In this document: piece by piece, positions 1,961-10,565 of the stretch
Layout of the letters: each line of letters begins with the position of its first letter
Numbering within the stretch: position 1 is the stretch's first letter
DNA from: Candidatus Woesearchaeota archaeon
Lineage (GTDB): Archaea > Nanobdellota > Nanobdellia > Woesearchaeales > UBA10216
Assembly (NCBI GenBank): GCA_016185705.1
Contig: JACPMZ010000008.1
Span: 1 to 57,122, forward strand
Reading direction: 5' to 3'
DNA length: 57,122 nucleotides
Notes under the pieces: model-generated
Told to the model about the DNA's origin: nothing
The model's input: the letters and a program-made list of their open reading frames with translations, nothing else
Database searches by the model: none
Program-made: the position numbers and the translations under genes

Positions 1961-4900
1961 GTTACGTTGTACACTATAGGTGCTGTTGTTACTGCGTTGC
2001 TTACATTGATGCTTGACAGGTTTTCAACCAGCTGGTTTCCTGCAAAGTCTGTTGCATTCACTGTAATGTTGTAGTAGCCGTTTACCAGTGTTGTGCTGCT
2101 TACTGTTGCTCTCCAGTAGCCCTGGTCGTAGTTGCCTGAGTCAATCGCTGCATCGAGCCAGTCAGTGGCAGCGTGCGTGCTGTTGTAGATTCTGAATGAG
2201 ACGTTAAGCACCTTGCTGGTTGTGTCGTTTGCTGATGCGTTTATTACTATGTTCTGGTCTGTGAAATTCGTCAGGTTTATTGGGCTTAACAATGTGAGGT
2301 TTGCGTCAGTGTTGTCTATCATTATGGACACGTTTGCTGATATGTTTGTGTTTGGTGTTGCTGCTGAGTCTGTTGCGTTTACGCTTAGGTTGTAGTAGCC
2401 GTCTGCTGCTGTTGTTGAGTCAACTATAACGTGCCTGTATCCTGATGTTGCGCTGCCCACGCTCAGGTTCATTGCTATCGGTCCTGATGCAACGCTTCCC
2501 GGCTGCAGCAGGCTGAGGTTGACGTTGTTGACATCGCTTTCTGAGTCGTTTACAGACGCATTTACTATGAAGCTTCCTGAGATGTTTGTGCTTGCTTCTG
2601 GAATTACTATGCTCACGTTTGGCTGCGTGGTGTCAGGCACTGCGTTGTTTATGGTTATTGTTGTTATGTTTTTTATGTTCTGGTTTCCTGCGTAGTCTGT
2701 TGCGTTTATCGTGATGTTGTATTGGTCGTTGGTCAGCGTTGCGCTGTCCACTGTTGCGTTCCACCATCCTGTTTGTTTGTCGCCTGCTCCAAGCGTTGCA
2801 TCCAGCCAGTCTGTTGCTGCGTGCGTGCTGTTGTAAATTCTGAATGTTGCGTTCAGGACTTTTGAGGTGGGGTCGTTTACTGAGGCGTTGATTAGGAAGC
2901 TTTCGTCTGCGAATGTTGTGCCGCTTGTTGGTTTGTCTATTGTTACGTTTGCCGGCGTTTTGTCTATCGTTATGGACACGTTTGCTGATATGTTTGTGTT
3001 TGGTGTTGCTGCTGAGTCTGTTGCTTTCACGCTGAGGTTGTAGATTCCATCGCTTACTGCTATGGTGTAGGTTGCGCCTCTGTATCCTGACCTGACTGTT
3101 CCGTCTATGAGGCTCATTGCTGTTGGTCCTTCTGCAATGATTTCCGGCTGCAGCAGGCTGAAGCTTACGTCGTTTACGTCGCTTGCTGAGTCGTTTACAG
3201 ACGCATTTACTGTAAATGCTACTGAGAAGTTGGAGTTTGCTTCTGGCAGAACGATGCTGTTGTTTGGAGGCGTAGTGTCTGTAACTGCTATGTCTAATGC
3301 GACGTTGTTTAGTGTATTGGTGCAGCCTGTAAATGTGTCCAGGGTGTTGGCTGTGGACTCTGCGCACCCCTCCATAGTCCAGACGATTACCTGGTTGTCT
3401 GCTGTGCTTGGCCAGTTGACGCAGTCAACAGTTCCAGAGCCTGTGTCAGAGCAGCTTGCAGCGCTTGCGCCGCTCACATCAATAGCGCTTACTCTGAGGT
3501 TGTTGGCGCCGCAGCTGTTGGAGAGCGCTATTGTTGCTTCGTTGTTTATCTGGAGCGTGCACGTTACTGCAAAGGAGTCTCCGCTGTTGTCGTATTGGCC
3601 TGTGCAGAGCGTTGTTTCGCCTACTTCTATGCTTGTTTTGTCGCAGGAGAAGCTGTCGTCTAATATCTTTGCCGGCGCATCGCTTGCAATCTGCCACTGC
3701 CTTGCTTCCTTCCACGTTCCTATTTCCAATTCCCCTAAGATGTAGAACTCAGGGCTTGCGTCAGGCGCGTCAAACTCGTACGCCAAGCTTATTGTGTCGC
3801 CTTTCTTAAGCTGCACATTCCAGCTCAGCACTTTTGCGTCTGCAGCTGTTGTTGCTGTCAGTCCCTGCTGCTGTGTTATGTTGAATGTTGCAGGCACGTA
3901 TTCTGTTATTTTGCCATTGTGGTTTTCATTGGCTGTTATGGTGATGTTCATTGTGTAGTTTGCTTGCGGGAATATCCTTGTAGGCCCGTTTCTTGCTACG
4001 TCAAACTCAACTGTGCTTTGCACTGAGAAGCTGTCAAGTATGCTTCTTTCGCCGTTGCTGGTTGCTGCCGTTAGGTTCATTTCATAAGTCCCGATTCCGC
4101 TGGCACTGTAGGTTGTGTAATAGTCGGGAAGGTTTGTGACTCCGTACACTTCGCATTCGTCAGAGACTTTTATGCTGCCTTCTTTTGTTGTCAGGATTGT
4201 TTCTGCGTTGTCAGGGGCTGTTATCTTCAGCGTTACGTTTGCGTCGCATACCATATGCCCTTGGTCGTCCAGCACAGCCATTGCTATGAACGCAGCCTCA
4301 TTCGGCAGGAATATTGATTTGTTGGTGTTTATTGCCAGAACTCCCCATGTGAAGTTCTGCTCTTCTGTGTAGGTGATGTTGTCTTTTGTGAGCTGCAGCT
4401 GCAGCGTGTACTTCCCTGCCCTGAATGCCCTCTGTTTTGCAAGCCTTAGTTCAAATTTGCCTTCTCTTAATTCCGCTATTTCCACCTCCGCTGCTGCTTT
4501 GTTCCCTCTGCTGTCAAATATTTCTGCAGTTATGGTTTCGTTTTCTGTTGCCCACTTGCTGAGCTTCTTCGGCTTTGCTGGTTTTTCAGCGCTGCCGCGC
4601 TTTGTGAATTCCTCCTCTGACATGTATTCAAACTCAAACTTGGCGTCCTCGCCCTGCCTGTAGTCTTTCTTCAGCGCCTTCAGCTTGGGCGTAATGTTGA
4701 TGGCAGTGGCGTTTGTTGCGTCAGCCAGTCTGACTTTGAACATTACTTCATCCGTGCCGGTGTTGCCTGCAAGGTCTTTTGCAAACAGTTTCAGGGTGTT
4801 GTTCCCTTCTGCTGCTGTAATGGTTGTGTTCGCATTTACTGTAACGCTGCTGCCGTTGTTCAGTTCATACCATATCCTGCTTGCCGGCTCATCTGTTGTA

Positions 4901-6093
4901 AAGTTGAGCTCAAGCGTTGTTGTGTTGTAAATCCTTATTCTTGGCGAGATGATTGTTACAATTGGCAGCCTGCTGTCTATTTCTTCAGCTGCTGCTATGG
5001 TGTAGGAGACTCTGCTTATTTCAATGGCTGCATTCTCTACTTCTATCACTATTTTATAGCTGCTCTCATTTAATCCTGCCAGTGCGCATGTTTCTTTGCA
5101 GATGTTGATGAACTCTATGCCTTTCTCCGCGCTCTTTTCCTGTTCAGGAATAAACACTGCGCTCAGGCTGCTGAAGTCGCTGTATATTATCTCTGAGTAA
5201 ATTTCTCCGCTGAGGCTGTAGTTCGCAGAGATTACCCTGCTGCTTACTGTGTTATTTGCTTCAGTGCCGTACAGCCCCGGAGATATGGCGAGCATGTCAT
5301 CCCAGCTGCTGCTTTCAGGCGCTACATCCAATAATGCGCAGCAATCTCTTTCTCCGAAGCACAGGGCTGTTGCTGCATCGCTTTCATCCGGCCGTATTAT
5401 CCATTGCGTGCACAGCTTGCCTGCATCCCAGCTGAAATTGGTGTTTGCAACAGTAAAGTCTATTGCTGAATTGTTGAATTCTGTTCCGTCATTGTCTGCA
5501 TCAAACAGCGTTCCGGAGTTGTATTGCAGGGAAATGTTAATTGCTTTCTCAGCTTCAATATTCTTTACTGGTTCTGTAATATTTACTTCTGTATCATTCG
5601 GCAGCGTTGCGTTCTCTGATTCATTTTGGGCAATTGCAGCGCTGTCCGCTGTGCTGGTTATTTCTGCGGTATTGTCTGCATTGCTCTCGCCATTCTGCGC
5701 TGCATCGCTTTCTGATATTGTGAATCCTGTTATTGATGCAAGCCCCTTCTCTTCTAATAAGCTGCTGTCAAGTATCAGGTATCTTGCTCCCTCTTTCTCA
5801 AGATACACCTTTGCAGTGCCTTCTCCTTTTATCCTTCCGCTTACGGCAACGCTTCTCAGTTCTCCGGCATTTTCCGGCTGCCAGATGTAAGTGATTGATT
5901 CGGATGTGCTGACATTAAGCTCATCCTCATAGCCTGTTACTGCTTCTATGGCAACGAATCCGGTCAGGCTGCCTGACGACATGAATATGGCGAATGTGGC
6001 AAGCACTATGAGGGCTGAAGCAAGCAGCGCAGCATTATGTTTAGCTGTGTCCCGCTCTTTGGGCTTCAGTCTTCTGGCTATCTGTTTTTCCAT
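1366..6093 (-). CDS. Giant cell-surface protein with Ig-like repeats
   Basis: 1575 residues. A basic N-terminus is followed by one hydrophobic segment (about residues 22-45, ALLASALIVLATFAIFM), a signal anchor or signal peptide. The C-terminal half holds repeats of roughly 100 residues of the type NASVNDS..SDVN / ATDSAATPNTNISANVSI / SFRIYNSTHAATDWLDA, resembling bacterial and archaeal Ig-like adhesin modules. NxS/T sequons are very frequent, suggesting heavy N-glycosylation. Likely S-layer or adhesin (inference). The start overlaps the upstream HTH gene by 16 bp, so the two are probably co-transcribed. The end ..QHQPAAASE results from a 7-nt deletion relative to the paralog at 1-879. Confidence 0.8.
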   Translation of the reverse strand: MEKQIARRLKPKERDTAKHNAALLASALIVLATFAIFMSSGSLTGFVAIEAVTGYEDELNVSTSESITYIWQPENAGELRSVAVSGRIKGEGTAKVYLEKEGARYLILDSSLLEEKGLASITGFTISESDAAQNGESNADNTAEITSTADSAAIAQNESENATLPNDTEVNITEPVKNIEAEKAINISLQYNSGTLFDADNDGTEFNNSAIDFTVANTNFSWDAGKLCTQWIIRPDESDAATALCFGERDCCALLDVAPESSSWDDMLAISPGLYGTEANNTVSSRVISANYSLSGEIYSEIIYSDFSSLSAVFIPEQEKSAEKGIEFINICKETCALAGLNESSYKIVIEVENAAIEISRVSYTIAAAEEIDSRLPIVTIISPRIRIYNTTTLELNFTTDEPASRIWYELNNGSSVTVNANTTITAAEGNNTLKLFAKDLAGNTGTDEVMFKVRLADATNATAINITPKLKALKKDYRQGEDAKFEFEYMSEEEFTKRGSAEKPAKPKKLSKWATENETITAEIFDSRGNKAAAEVEIAELREGKFELRLAKQRAFRAGKYTLQLQLTKDNITYTEEQNFTWGVLAINTNKSIFLPNEAAFIAMAVLDDQGHMVCDANVTLKITAPDNAETILTTKEGSIKVSDECEVYGVTNLPDYYTTYSASGIGTYEMNLTAATSNGERSILDSFSVQSTVEFDVARNGPTRIFPQANYTMNITITANENHNGKITEYVPATFNITQQQGLTATTAADAKVLSWNVQLKKGDTISLAYEFDAPDASPEFYILGELEIGTWKEARQWQIASDAPAKILDDSFSCDKTSIEVGETTLCTGQYDNSGDSFAVTCTLQINNEATIALSNSCGANNLRVSAIDVSGASAASCSDTGSGTVDCVNWPSTADNQVIVWTMEGCAESTANTLDTFTGCTNTLNNVALDIAVTDTTPPNNSIVLPEANSNFSVAFTVNASVNDSASDVNDVSFSLLQPEIIAEGPTAMSLIDGTVRSGYRGATYTIAVSDGIYNLSVKATDSAATPNTNISANVSITIDKTPANVTIDKPTSGTTFADESFLINASVNDPTSKVLNATFRIYNSTHAATDWLDATLGAGDKQTGWWNATVDSATLTNDQYNITINATDYAGNQNIKNITTITINNAVPDTTQPNVSIVIPEASTNISGSFIVNASVNDSESDVNNVNLSLLQPGSVASGPIAMNLSVGSATSGYRHVIVDSTTAADGYYNLSVNATDSAATPNTNISANVSIMIDNTDANLTLLSPINLTNFTDQNIVINASANDTTSKVLNVSFRIYNSTHAATDWLDAAIDSGNYDQGYWRATVSSTTLVNGYYNITVNATDFAGNQLVENLSSINVSNAVTTAPIVYNVTSAQITPTAASHATNVVVRFNVTDADGADDADSGLDDTTAKVNITFLPGETAEYSRFNNTGNCATIATFNGDQDRTYECKVAIRYHDNASALWRINASVEDKSNSASYNSSQNLTINSLSAIDLVNANLAASGSIGNQNLELTLVINNTGNFEFTYMNLTPRLLNASLTDFFMLGGETSGTRGSANFSFQHQPAAASE

Positions 6094-6638
6094 TTTTTCG
6101 TTGCCTTATTGTAGATGCTCCAGATGTTTCGCTGGTCGCGGTTGAGCAAAGAGGAGATTTCAACAAGCTTCAGACCCTTCTCTTTCAGGTGGGCAACAGC
6201 AGCTTCCAGAACGCTCAGCTTTCTGTCCTGGAAAATGCTGGCAGGCAGAACGTATTTTGTAGGCGGAACCGCCAGTCCTGCCTTTAATTTTCTGGACGCA
6301 TTCCTGTACGTTGTCCATATCGTCCTGTAGTCGCGGTTGAGAAGCCCTGATATCTCCTTGTAGCCGAGATTGCGCTCTTCCTTTAGGTACTTGCAGAGAA
6401 TTTCCAGCGGCCTTAATTCAGTGTTTGTAAGGATGGAAGCGGGAATGCCGTTTTCAGGCGCTTCATCAGCCCTGACAAGCTGCAGTATCTGCTCGTCAGT
6501 CAGCTTATACTTGCTTGTCAGGCTGTCAAGGACAGCCCTCAAATCGCCCAAAAGAAGCTTCAGAATCTGGAATGAACGGTCGTCAGGAATCCTGGGACTA
6601 ATGTTTCCGCTGCCTTTCCTGCTCCTGACGCTTTTCAT
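6078..6638 (-). CDS. Tandem helix-turn-helix regulator
   Basis: 186 residues. Two related units of about 55 residues follow each other: PASILTNTELRPLEILCKYLKE..YKEISGLLNRDYRTIWTTYRNA and PASIFQDRKLSVLEAAVAHLKE..LVEISSLLNRDQRNIWSIYNKA. Each ends in a helix-turn-helix of sigma-70 region 4/resolvase type. An N-terminal helical region precedes them. It lies upstream of, and overlaps by 16 bp, the giant surface-protein gene, so it probably controls that gene or its own promoter. Repeated AATGTATTAA and CCTATAAAT elements upstream could be its targets. I do not recognise a named family. Confidence 0.7.
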   Translation of the reverse strand: MKSVRSRKGSGNISPRIPDDRSFQILKLLLGDLRAVLDSLTSKYKLTDEQILQLVRADEAPENGIPASILTNTELRPLEILCKYLKEERNLGYKEISGLLNRDYRTIWTTYRNASRKLKAGLAVPPTKYVLPASIFQDRKLSVLEAAVAHLKEKGLKLVEISSLLNRDQRNIWSIYNKATKKWKNR

Positions 6639-7523: not shown

Positions 7524-7727
7524 GTGAATGATAAAATGGCATCTGTAACTTTGGAGCAATTGAATGATAATATTATGGAACTTAAAAAAGATGTTGAAGA
7601 GCTGAAAGAGTATATGCGTGAAGACTTCGTACGTGCAGATAGCGTTAAGAAGGATATTGCGGATTCTCGTAAAAGGCCTGATTCTGAATTTGTTAAGCAT
7701 GATGATGTTATGAAGCGGTATTCTTGA
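7524..7727 (+). CDS. Putative antitoxin of a RelE-type module
   Basis: 67-residue, highly charged, mostly helical protein (TLEQLNDNIMELKKDVEELKEYMREDF), likely coiled coil. It lies directly upstream of a RelE-like reading frame whose ATG follows its stop by 2 bp, the usual antitoxin-toxin order. A TATA-like ATTTATATATG lies about 30-35 bp before the start. The C-terminus (VKHDDVMKRYS) resembles the end of RelB-type antitoxins, but the assignment rests mainly on context. Confidence 0.55.
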   Translation: MNDKMASVTLEQLNDNIMELKKDVEELKEYMREDFVRADSVKKDIADSRKRPDSEFVKHDDVMKRYS

Positions 7728-7729
7728 AA

Positions 7730-7909
7730 ATGGCTTTTGAGGTAATTTGGGATCCCAAGTCGCTTAAAGTTCTTGATAAACTTCCTAAAGAAGATTCCGG
7801 AAGGATTGTTAAAAAAGTTGATATTGTTAAAGAGGATCCGAAGAGGTATGCTGAAAGATTGGTTGGTGAAGAGGGGTATAAAATTCGGGTTGGAGATTAC
7901 AAGGACTGA
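7730..7909 (+). pseudogene. Truncated RelE/ParE-family toxin
   Basis: Encodes AFEVIWDPKSLKVLDKLPKEDSGRIVKKV..ERLVGEEGYKIRVGDYKD, which covers the first two strands and helices of a RelE toxin up to the (Y/K)xRVGDYR strand. It then stops at 59 residues (ATG at 7730; TTG at 7724 possible), where RelE proteins usually have 80-90. The last two strands, with the usual catalytic Arg/Tyr/His positions, are absent and not found in other frames. The toxin is therefore probably inactive. Confidence 0.6.
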
Positions 7910-9085: not shown

Positions 9086-9195
9086 GCTGTTCGGTGTTAA
9101 ACTTATTTTTATAAAGGTTTGTTAAAGAAGCAATTTGCTGTTCCGCTGTGGCGCTTTGGCAGGTGTAAATGTTTCAGTGGCAGTTACGGCTCGTA

Positions 9196-9238
9196 TTGTA
9201 AAGATAAACACCTAAAAATGAGGTATTTTTCTTTATTA
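9196..9238. promoter_or_regulatory. Palindromic operator 1 of the Fic gene
   Basis: Imperfect inverted repeat: left arm TTGTAAAGATAAACACCT (9196-9213), 7-nt centre, right arm AGGTATTTTTCTTTATTA (9221-9238), 14 of 18 positions complementary. The right half is repeated as a 24-nt direct repeat (one mismatch) at 9290-9313. Probably binds a dimeric regulator. Confidence 0.6.
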
Positions 9239-9268
9239 TAGCGAAGTCAAAGTGTAAAACTGATTTAA

Positions 9269-9309
9269 AATAAAGAAAATTACCTTAATATGAGGTATTT
9301 TTGTTTATT
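9269..9309. promoter_or_regulatory. Palindromic operator 2, abutting the Fic promoter
   Basis: Inverted repeat AATAAAGAAAATTACCT / AGGTATTTTTGTTTATT (9269-9285 and 9293-9309), 15 of 17 complementary, same 7-nt centre length and about 72 bp from operator 1. It abuts the TATA box AAATTTATAAAC (about 9316-9327) upstream of the ATG at 9348, so occupancy should block transcription initiation. Confidence 0.65.
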
Positions 9310-9347
9310 ATAGAAAAATTTATAAACTGCAGCTGCTTACTTCAAAT

Positions 9348-10565
9348 ATGGTATCTGAATATGATGTCTTTTACTTTGTTGCTGCTAAAGGCAATGCGCG
9401 TATTAGTGAGATTGCCCGAGGTCTGCGTCGGGAGACAGATGCTTCCAATGTGCGGAAGCTGGTGCTGCAGTTAAAGCAGGAGGGTTATGTTGAGCAGAAT
9501 GAGCGCGTTCAGGTTATCCCAAATGAAAAAGCAAAAAAATTGTATGCGCTTTTGGCGTTCTGCGTGAAGAATAATATCAGCTACAACTTTATGTTCCGTA
9601 AATCAGTTCTTGGCTTTTTGAGGAAAGTTGCGCGCAAAGAGTTTTTTACAATTAAGGATTGCAAAATTACCATGCCTACGTTTTTGGATTACACGGCAGC
9701 GCTGGAGAAGTATGGGTTTTTGCTTGTTATTTCAAGAAAGCCCTTAACCTGCAAACTGCTTAGGCATCATTTCCTGTATGACTTATTGTCTTTCTTTGGC
9801 AGCAGGCCAGTATTTTATACTCGCGCTGTTCATGATTTGATTCCAAAGATTAAGCATGAGCTGGGCAAGTACCGGAAGAATATGAAATACCGGCAGAATT
9901 TGCTTTCGGATATTGAACAAAGGGAGGAGATTAATTTTATCCATGTAAGTTTGAGTCTGGAAGGCAATCCTGTTACTCTGTCTGACACCGAAAAAATTAT
10001 TATGGATGGAACTGTATCCAGAAACTACAAAGTTGAGCACATTCAGGAAGTTGCCAACTACAGGAAAGCTGTTGATGCCATGATAATGAATGCGCAAGCA
10101 AAGGAGAAACTGACACTTCCTCTGATTTTGGAGTATCATAGGCTGGCAATGTCTCACATGCGTGGCGCCGGGGAGTTGAGGAGGCAGAATGTCCATATTT
10201 TGGGCAACCCACAGTTCAAGACATGCGAGTGGAGATTGCTGCCTGAGAAATTAGCGGATTTAATGAAGAAGTATGGTGAATTCAATTCAGAGGATGTGGC
10301 TGAGATAATCCGGTTTGCCGCATTTTTTCACAGCGAATTTCAGCGAATTCATCCGTTTATTGATGGAAACAGCAGGACGTCAAGATTATTGTTGATGCAC
10401 ATCCTGAGATTTCACGATTTGCCTGTATTAGACCTGCCTTTGGGCTATTTTGATGAATACATGGACCTGACAAAGCGCTCAGTGAAGCGAGATGATGAAT
10501 CATTCAGGCAGTTAATTGAAGAGATTGTGTTTTTTAATCTCAGAAGAGTTAATTCTGTTCTTTAA
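9348..10565 (+). CDS. Fic-domain AMPylase-like protein with N-terminal winged helix
   Basis: 405 residues. Residues 1-60 form a MarR/ArsR-like winged helix (ISEIARGLRRETDASNVRKLVLQLKQEGYV). The Fic domain has the catalytic loop HPFIDGNSR at 335-343 (consensus HPFxxGNGR; the second Gly is Ser here) and an inhibitory helix SLSLEGN at 201-207 matching (S/T)xxxE(G/N). Fic enzymes usually transfer AMP to target hydroxyls, and the inhibitory Glu competes for ATP. Fic proteins with a DNA-binding domain are often autoregulated, consistent with the two palindromes upstream. Its 3' end overlaps the convergent PLD gene by 17 bp. Confidence 0.85.
   Translation: MVSEYDVFYFVAAKGNARISEIARGLRRETDASNVRKLVLQLKQEGYVEQNERVQVIPNEKAKKLYALLAFCVKNNISYNFMFRKSVLGFLRKVARKEFFTIKDCKITMPTFLDYTAALEKYGFLLVISRKPLTCKLLRHHFLYDLLSFFGSRPVFYTRAVHDLIPKIKHELGKYRKNMKYRQNLLSDIEQREEINFIHVSLSLEGNPVTLSDTEKIIMDGTVSRNYKVEHIQEVANYRKAVDAMIMNAQAKEKLTLPLILEYHRLAMSHMRGAGELRRQNVHILGNPQFKTCEWRLLPEKLADLMKKYGEFNSEDVAEIIRFAAFFHSEFQRIHPFIDGNSRTSRLLLMHILRFHDLPVLDLPLGYFDEYMDLTKRSVKRDDESFRQLIEEIVFFNLRRVNSVL

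Follow-up and report, generated by a model that had tools for sequence, protein, structure and literature searches.

A Fic protein with tandem N-terminal winged helices in a Candidatus Woesearchaeota archaeon is predicted to bind palindromic operators at its own promoter

We propose that a Fic protein of a Candidatus Woesearchaeota archaeon directly binds an operator at its own promoter and thereby regulates its own gene, a reading to which we assign a probability of roughly 0.78 for regulation of either sign. The gene lies in the window, a 57,122-nt stretch of DNA that is one whole contig of a 1.23 Mb genome in 14 contigs; the gene's relatives and promoter also point to an archaeal origin. 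Direct autoregulation, which an earlier note on this DNA had suggested, is supported here by palindromes that covary while keeping their position and by half-sites that vary together with the protein's recognition helices; the two results in combination provide strong computational evidence for direct binding.

Two palindromes precede the gene (Table 1). Both have the core ACCT-N7-AGGT, at 9210-9224 and 9282-9296, with a start-to-start distance of 72 bp, and both cores sit within a 43-nt direct repeat that is 86% identical. Scored over extended arms of 18 positions, located 4-21 nt from the palindrome's centre, the near copy has 15/18 pairs, which 0/200 dinucleotide shuffles equalled anywhere in 250 nt, and the far copy has 14/18 pairs (2/200 shuffles as good). 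A distance of 72 bp is close to seven turns, and both operators should therefore face one way. The near operator ends at the likely BRE, 6 bp before a TATA-like element that is itself 22-29 nt before the Fic ATG, and this TATA-to-ATG distance suggests a leaderless transcript. By eye, a TAGAAA-TTTATAAA-like layout is also present in most of the relative loci printed.

Table 1. Coordinates of the Fic gene, its core promoter, operators and selected codons, as window positions. The limits of the operator arms derive from the pairing profile over 47 loci.
Feature	Position	Strand	Basis or detail
Far operator (centre 9217), a second copy lying exactly 72 bp upstream of the near one	9194..9240	.	Repeat search, pairing scores
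Far operator half-sites	inner 9208-9213/9221-9226, outer 9194-9202/9232-9240		
Near operator, 47 bp palindrome, centre 9289, 59 nt before ATG	9266..9312	.	Repeat search, pairing scores
Near operator half-sites	inner 9280-9285/9293-9298, outer 9266-9274/9304-9312		
Archaeal core promoter	9312..9326	+	BRE-like purine-rich 9312-9318; TATA-like TTTATAAA 9319-9326
Fic protein gene, 405 aa	9348..10565	+	Pfam match, alignment, AlphaFold2 model, fold comparison
Codons 31-44, putative recognition helix 1 (res 32-44)	9438..9479	+	Best inner half-site predictor
Codons 106-122, putative recognition helix 2 (res 109-122)	9663..9713	+	Best outer half-site predictor
Codons 335-346, catalytic loop HPFIDGNSRTSR, Ser342 at the second-Gly (G2) position	10350..10385	+	

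The two sites stand alone in their genome. A search with the extended pattern at up to three mismatches returned three matches, all within the two sites (two on the plus strand, and the near site read on the minus strand), and none for a reversed control; it reaches sites that differ by at most three letters, and more divergent sites of a regulon would escape it. A shorter pattern found only the two Fic operators at up to one mismatch, and reached chance level at three mismatches (30 matches versus 29 for the control). The earlier note had described two inverted repeats with 7-nt centres 72 bp apart, exactly as found, and a second palindrome abutting the TATA box, which is right to within 6 bp, the near operator abutting the likely BRE instead; it had also named palindromes before many unrelated genes as grounds for refuting its reading, and when we looked in this genome for sites like these two, no others appeared.

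A nucleotidyltransferase gene at C14:26614 was considered as a second owner of the operator, its palindrome being three mismatches away, and was rejected: the core and the gene are different, and the palindrome is placed between the TATA box and the start codon, unlike the Fic operator. At this locus (L014 5409-6597, G000:C14:25408-26596, minus strand), the nucleotidyltransferase-like gene (217 aa) overlaps a HEPN-like gene (184 aa), and another Fic gene with a canonical GNGR (4248-5207) follows them; judged by eye, they resemble a HEPN/MNT-like pair with its own operator, the palindrome TACCCTAATATCAGGTA. Two further observations concern the window itself. A small two-gene pair lies on the plus strand at 7524-7909, and its second ORF (61 aa), which ends early, resembles by eye the first part of a RelE/ParE toxin, with no match to a Pfam family. 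On the minus strand at 6078-6638, next to a 1575-aa surface-like protein, is a 186-aa protein with two tandem HTH-like repeats and a weak Pfam match to sigma-70 region 4 (E 6e-4, below the cut-off).

We collected relatives at several taxonomic depths. Matches at E <= 1e-22 occur in 42 of 352 genomes of the order, a count that includes the source genome and a more distant subfamily, and a profile search of the class returned 37 of 378 genomes at E <= 1e-40. The gene is patchy, because a full-length ortholog is absent from both other genomes of the genus and present in only one (G004) of the family's other 18. An alignment search of named genomes found 199 relatives; a single-protein query returned 20 stretches, none of them a relative. 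The best 80 of the 199 were kept (L072-L151), and by label 60 of these are Woese-, Pace-, Nano-, Aenigmat-, Micr- or Nanohalarchaeota or Diapherotrites, all of which we take to be DPANN archaea, 12 are labelled only archaeon, 2 are other archaea and 6 are bacterial; the latter six may be mis-binned or transferred. Operator counts use 74 of the 80 loci and the window, 75 in all, after six loci that were truncated, frameshifted or had too little upstream sequence were dropped (L083, L086, L129, L130, L142 and L146), and reduction at 70% identity leaves 47 divergent loci. Protein alignment A2 also has 75 rows, with L086 and without L143. L064, which has an internal stop, was left out of alignment A1, and L126, with the same upstream sequence, is in A2 up to its stop. 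We dropped 17 class-level regions as a fresh test set, taking them for the same records as in L072-L151, where contigs of identical length exist for all 17.

The commonest neighbouring gene family occurs at 4 of the 75 loci (flanks of 4 kb at most, less where a contig ends). Consequently, we find no conserved neighbour as a regulator or partner, and the gene seems to move with its promoter but without other genes. On viral contigs, matches were confined to the Fic domain, those listed starting at query residue 163 or later, except one at 64. Several loci have features of their own. L072 (MFWN01000081.1) holds two wHTH-Fic paralogs, one at 4001-5227 and the other 1848 nt after its start, and a third paralog (L102) is on another contig of the same assembly prefix. 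In L078, on the minus strand, AbiEi/AbiEii-like genes (phage-defence toxin-antitoxin) were recognised by eye 2.4-3.7 kb downstream of the Fic start. A sister subfamily (L232-L245) of about 380 aa begins with MPTKYDVFA and has GNSR in 13 of 14 loops, with VNSR in L242; its palindrome, like AATTAACTTTTTTT...AAAAATAGTTAATT, lies about 50 nt before the start and is by eye much less varied, and the best palindrome is at -49/-50 in 10 of the 14 loci, two ties included.

In relatives that are 29-55% identical, a palindrome recurs at the corresponding position, some 60 bp ahead of the start codon. The best palindrome within 250 nt is centred at -57 to -62 in 26.4 of the 47 divergent loci (ties split), compared to 1.36 expected. 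Near -60, 34 of the 47 loci reach 11 or more of 18 pairs, versus 9 of 212 regions upstream of neighbouring ORFs, and 16/47 versus 1/212 reach 13 or more (Mann-Whitney p 1e-19); 13 of the 47 loci score below 11. The control regions themselves have their best palindrome at that position slightly above chance (11.2/212, about 6 expected). Across the 47 loci, the pairing profile has one peak at 4-9 nt from the centre (57-89%) and another at 15-23 nt (55-85%), with 38-49% between the peaks, values near the 32% background beyond 24 nt, and background pairing at the innermost centre. The two peaks match the two winged helices that each protein chain appears to contain.

Circularity was avoided by choosing the centre from the inner arms alone before the outer arms were scored; paired positions then make up 249 of the 423 outer-arm cells (59%), compared to 22-31% in 24 control windows. 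Swapping arms between loci reduced the inner pairs from 211 of 282 to 124 +/- 7 and the outer pairs from 288 of 423 to 222 +/- 8, while positions 22-23 alone (66 versus 61 +/- 2, largest 67) are not clearly above this swap control. Therefore, the letters differ between clades while the symmetry is kept, and the inner half-site, ACCT in the window, is TCCG, TTTA, TTAC, TAGA or TTAA elsewhere. The second copy is itself recurrent: the best repeat of the near operator lies at 72 bp in 5 of the 47 divergent loci, where 0.5 is expected, and a second copy at 72-73 bp is found in at least 13 of the 75 loci.

We now turn to the protein residues that track these changing letters. In a blind scan of 396 nine-residue windows, the half-sites of each locus were compared with those of a donor that was less than 60% or less than 70% identical overall and most alike within the window, under four settings, some of them with all 75 loci. 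In every setting, the six best windows for the inner half-site start at residues 28-33 (similarity 0.64 versus 0.43 for random donors, all loci, 60% limit), and the best window for the outer half-site starts at 106 or 107 (0.66 versus 0.51); at the 60% settings, windows at 12 and 250-251 join it in the top six for the outer half-site. Partial correlation over 50 loci with 4/5 inner pairs, a sample shared with the paralog comparison, linked the inner half-site to columns 33, 36, 285 and 329 and the outer half-site to columns 108, 110 and 379. Mutual information between operator positions and 405 protein columns, over all 75 loci and with no symmetry filter, placed operator position d16 with residue 108, d4 with 36, d6 with 33, d4 with 173 and d5 with 37 at the top of 6075 pairs. 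Columns outside both winged helices (149, 173, 285 and 329) also rank high. A preset face of helix 1 (residues 32, 33, 36, 37 and 40) scored 1.49 against the inner positions, where the largest of 60 within-clade permutations gave 0.57. The preset face of helix 2 failed against the outer positions 15-18 (0.19; largest of 60 permutations 0.28), and the support for recognition helix 2 consists of single pairs (d16 with residue 108, d17 with residue 110) and the window scan.

Residue 33 stands out when close relatives are compared. Among 205 close pairs with inner arms pairing at 3/4 or better (below 88% identity for the column comparison), it differs in 96% of the 91 pairs with changed inner half-sites versus 14% of the 86 whose inner half-sites agree, an increase that no other of the 399 columns reaches, with the proviso that the pairs are non-independent and that mean identity is 0.63 in the changed set and 0.72 in the equal set. 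Residues 33, 36 and 37 are all unchanged in four of the 91 changed pairs, for example L074/L077, where the palindrome of L074 is poor. L119 and L125 form the cleanest pair: at 78% identity, the former combines Lys33 with TAGA and the latter His33 with TTAC. Within L072, the first paralog has the helix YQIVFN and TTTA in both arms; the second has the helix YHAIHK and TTAC in the left arm, the right arm being imperfect.

The protein belongs to the Fic superfamily: residues 255-353 match PF02661 (E 9.6e-16, 58.9 bits, cut-off 24), as do all 75 members of A2 at E <= 0.01. Pfam gives a weak hint at the N-terminus (HTH_IclR, E 0.016). An AlphaFold2 model built from 75 sequences (pLDDT 93.5, pTM 0.90) orders the chain as wHTH1, wHTH2, linker helices, the inhibitory motif and the Fic core with its loop H335-R346. 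In the model, wHTH1 occupies residues 4-56 (helices 4-14, 19-25 and 32-44, hairpin 48-56) and wHTH2 residues 85-137 (helices 85-94, 102-104 and 109-122, hairpin 125-137), and the N-terminal part modelled alone has the same fold. Three features read earlier from the sequence recur in these results: the N-terminal winged helix, to which the model adds a second that had been missed; the internal inhibitory motif, as S201-x3-E205-G206; and HPFIDGNSR with Ser in place of Gly, as H335-PFIDGNS342R. By VIA-align, wHTH1 superimposes on the winged helices of MecR2 (Z 10.6, rmsd 1.3 A, 56 aligned) and FeoC (Z 10.3). Foldseek, queried with the N-terminal model, found nothing at E <= 0.001, and the wHTH2 sequence gave nothing significant against solved structures (best E 0.015, a DNA polymerase); wHTH2 is recognised by its topology in the model. 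Residues 159-405 align with FICD (Z 29.4, rmsd 2.3 A, 238 aligned), BT_2513 (Z 28.5), a C. difficile Fic (24.3), CbFic2 (23.0) and SoFic (22.0).

The (S/T)xxxE(G/N) helix N-terminal to the core, S201-E205-G206, identifies a class II Fic protein, and its Glu and Gly are invariant in 75 of 75 rows, with Ser in at least 90%. The catalytic loop, HPFIDGNSRTSR, departs from the canonical AMPylating motif HPFx(D/E)GNGRxxR in having Ser342 at G2. Ser is found there in all 75 aligned members of A2; one of the two patterns that retrieved the named-genome relatives contained GNS, a possible bias to Ser, and alignment A1, from a whole-protein search free of that bias, has Ser in all 25 rows. The 29 distinct non-orthologous Fic motifs in the family's genomes (33 printed, four of them twice) all have Gly, the lone Ser among family-genome motifs being that of the ortholog L018, and Gly is present in 80 of 80 Fic motifs at viral loci, near-copies included. 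Profiles for named relatives do not claim the protein: it has Ser342 rather than the Lys of Doc kinases at motif position 8 and scores 22 bits against TIGR01550 (cut-off 38.65), it scores 31.6 against the SoFic family NF046030 of NCBIfam (cut-off 550), and PADLOC profiles, which have no curated cut-off, match the Fic domain only (PDC-S04, E 2.4e-26; SoFic, E 1.1e-25). We searched CC-licensed PMC articles for Fic proteins with GNSR, DPANN Fic proteins with a helix-turn-helix and a Woesearch- Fic family, and found none.

Altered chemistry at Ser342 is plausible from the sequence. In the part of the source available, Lys at motif position 8 of Doc causes ATP to be bound inverted, and phosphorylation results (PMC4177925); the accessible text of a second source likewise states that a side chain at this position prevents canonical ATP binding, as in some Beps (PMC8401265). 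These precedents, and the contrast between a Ser kept by all 75 members and the Gly of the non-orthologous and viral motifs, speak against a neutral substitution in an ordinary AMPylase. That reading nevertheless stands at even odds in our estimate, Ser being small and His335, Asp339, Asn341, Arg343 and Arg346 of the motif being invariant.

In our model, one gene would form a self-regulating module whose Fic enzyme binds as a dimer to the 47-bp palindrome upstream of its own BRE/TATA. The inner half-sites, at 4-9 bp from the centre, would be contacted by recognition helix 1 and the outer half-sites, at 15-23 bp, by recognition helix 2, placing the four winged helices of the dimer on four half-sites about one turn apart. 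The second operator, on the same face, would strengthen binding or cooperate in it. The outer arm touches the BRE, and a protein bound there would most likely exclude TFB and act as a repressor of its own leaderless transcript; we infer the sign, and consider repression the likelier one. The inhibitory Glu205 would keep the Fic active site closed at rest. According to the available part of one report, CbFic2 is proposed to switch on DNA from an AMPylating monomer to a deAMPylating dimer (PMC10628234), and therefore, as a guess, the Fic enzyme may be off on its operator. A more speculative and rather improbable extension treats the operator as the module's antitoxin: DNA-bound dimers would be shut or would reverse the modification, operator loss or titration would free monomers to modify a cell target by Ser-shifted chemistry, and changes in helix and half-site would insulate co-resident paralogs, as in toxin-antitoxin families but within one gene.

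The same binding could have the opposite sign. The protein would then recruit TFB/TBP to its own promoter and create a positive-feedback switch, an outcome that we find doubtful and that is counted within the probability of autoregulation. Its appeal is that the operator ends at the BRE without covering the TATA box or the start, that the tandem sites are in fixed helical phase, and that some archaeal activators also bind just upstream of the BRE. However, a protein on arms reaching +23 from the operator centre should touch a BRE that occupies +24 onward, and CccR, the Fic-HTH autoregulator that has been studied, represses in the account available to us (PMC9755527).

Two other readings dispense with direct autoregulation. 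A palindrome by itself only implies a dimeric binder, and a different transcription factor could occupy it while the Fic winged helices do something else; we regard this as very unlikely, as the half-sites vary with the Fic protein's own two recognition helices, ranked first of 396 windows, the sites are unique in their genome, no other gene family travels along, and the two paralogs of L072, at the same locus, differ in both helix and site. Least credible of all is the reading of the inverted repeats, which do lie in an AT-rich intergenic stretch, as RNA or DNA hairpins that terminate the upstream region or structure a leader. The repeats are upstream of the TATA box and should be outside the transcript, their position is fixed to the BRE/TATA, their innermost centre pairs at background, and their covariation follows the protein's recognition helices.

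To our knowledge, few regulators have been characterised in DPANN archaea. Dozens of protein/operator pairs occur naturally in the family, and in these a 4-bp half-site varies along with residue 33 and the residues near it; a recognition code for winged helices and the coupling of DNA binding to Fic activity are therefore directly testable. Throughout the family, moreover, Ser occupies the position that distinguishes AMP transfer from phosphorylation.

HTH-Fic fusions, possibly regulating fic, were already noted in 2009, in the text available (PMC2686095), and in the CC-licensed PMC literature CccR of Yersinia pseudotuberculosis is the one clear case of Fic autoregulation through a palindrome. 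CccR has been shown to repress its own promoter and needs to form a dimer, as described in the accessible part of the report (PMC9755527), and by sequence the archaeal protein appears to share its combination of Fic and HTH in one chain with a palindromic operator at its own promoter. The differences, on the same partial account, are several. The CccR operator is a 46-nt palindrome with 10-bp arms and a 26-bp spacer, whereas the archaeal outer arms are 29 bp apart and inner half-sites are added; CccR has a single C-terminal HTH rather than tandem N-terminal winged helices; and CccR is a bacterial secreted effector with a -35/-10 promoter, whereas the archaeal gene has an archaeal promoter and Ser in its Fic loop. 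SoFic and CbFic2 (PDB 3eqx, 8cil) share the class II fold and inhibitory Glu, but their HTH is C-terminal and their N-terminus is DUF4172, a different domain order, and CbFic2 has a canonical GNGR and was assayed on random DNA, so far as the available text describes them (PMC10628234). FICD/HYPE, C. elegans Fic-1 and B. thetaiotaomicron BT_2513 are the best fold matches of residues 159-405; these matches exclude the wHTH pair, and the Fic-1 loop is GNGR. In the Doc toxin, position 8 of the Fic motif is likewise not Gly, but it is Lys rather than Ser, and the excerpted source describes a six-helix core with the antitoxin Phd in trans (PMC4177925). An autoregulated Fic-HTH protein is thus already known in CccR; what is new here is the archaeal pair of tandem N-terminal winged helices, the four-half-site operator predicted for them and the altered catalytic loop.
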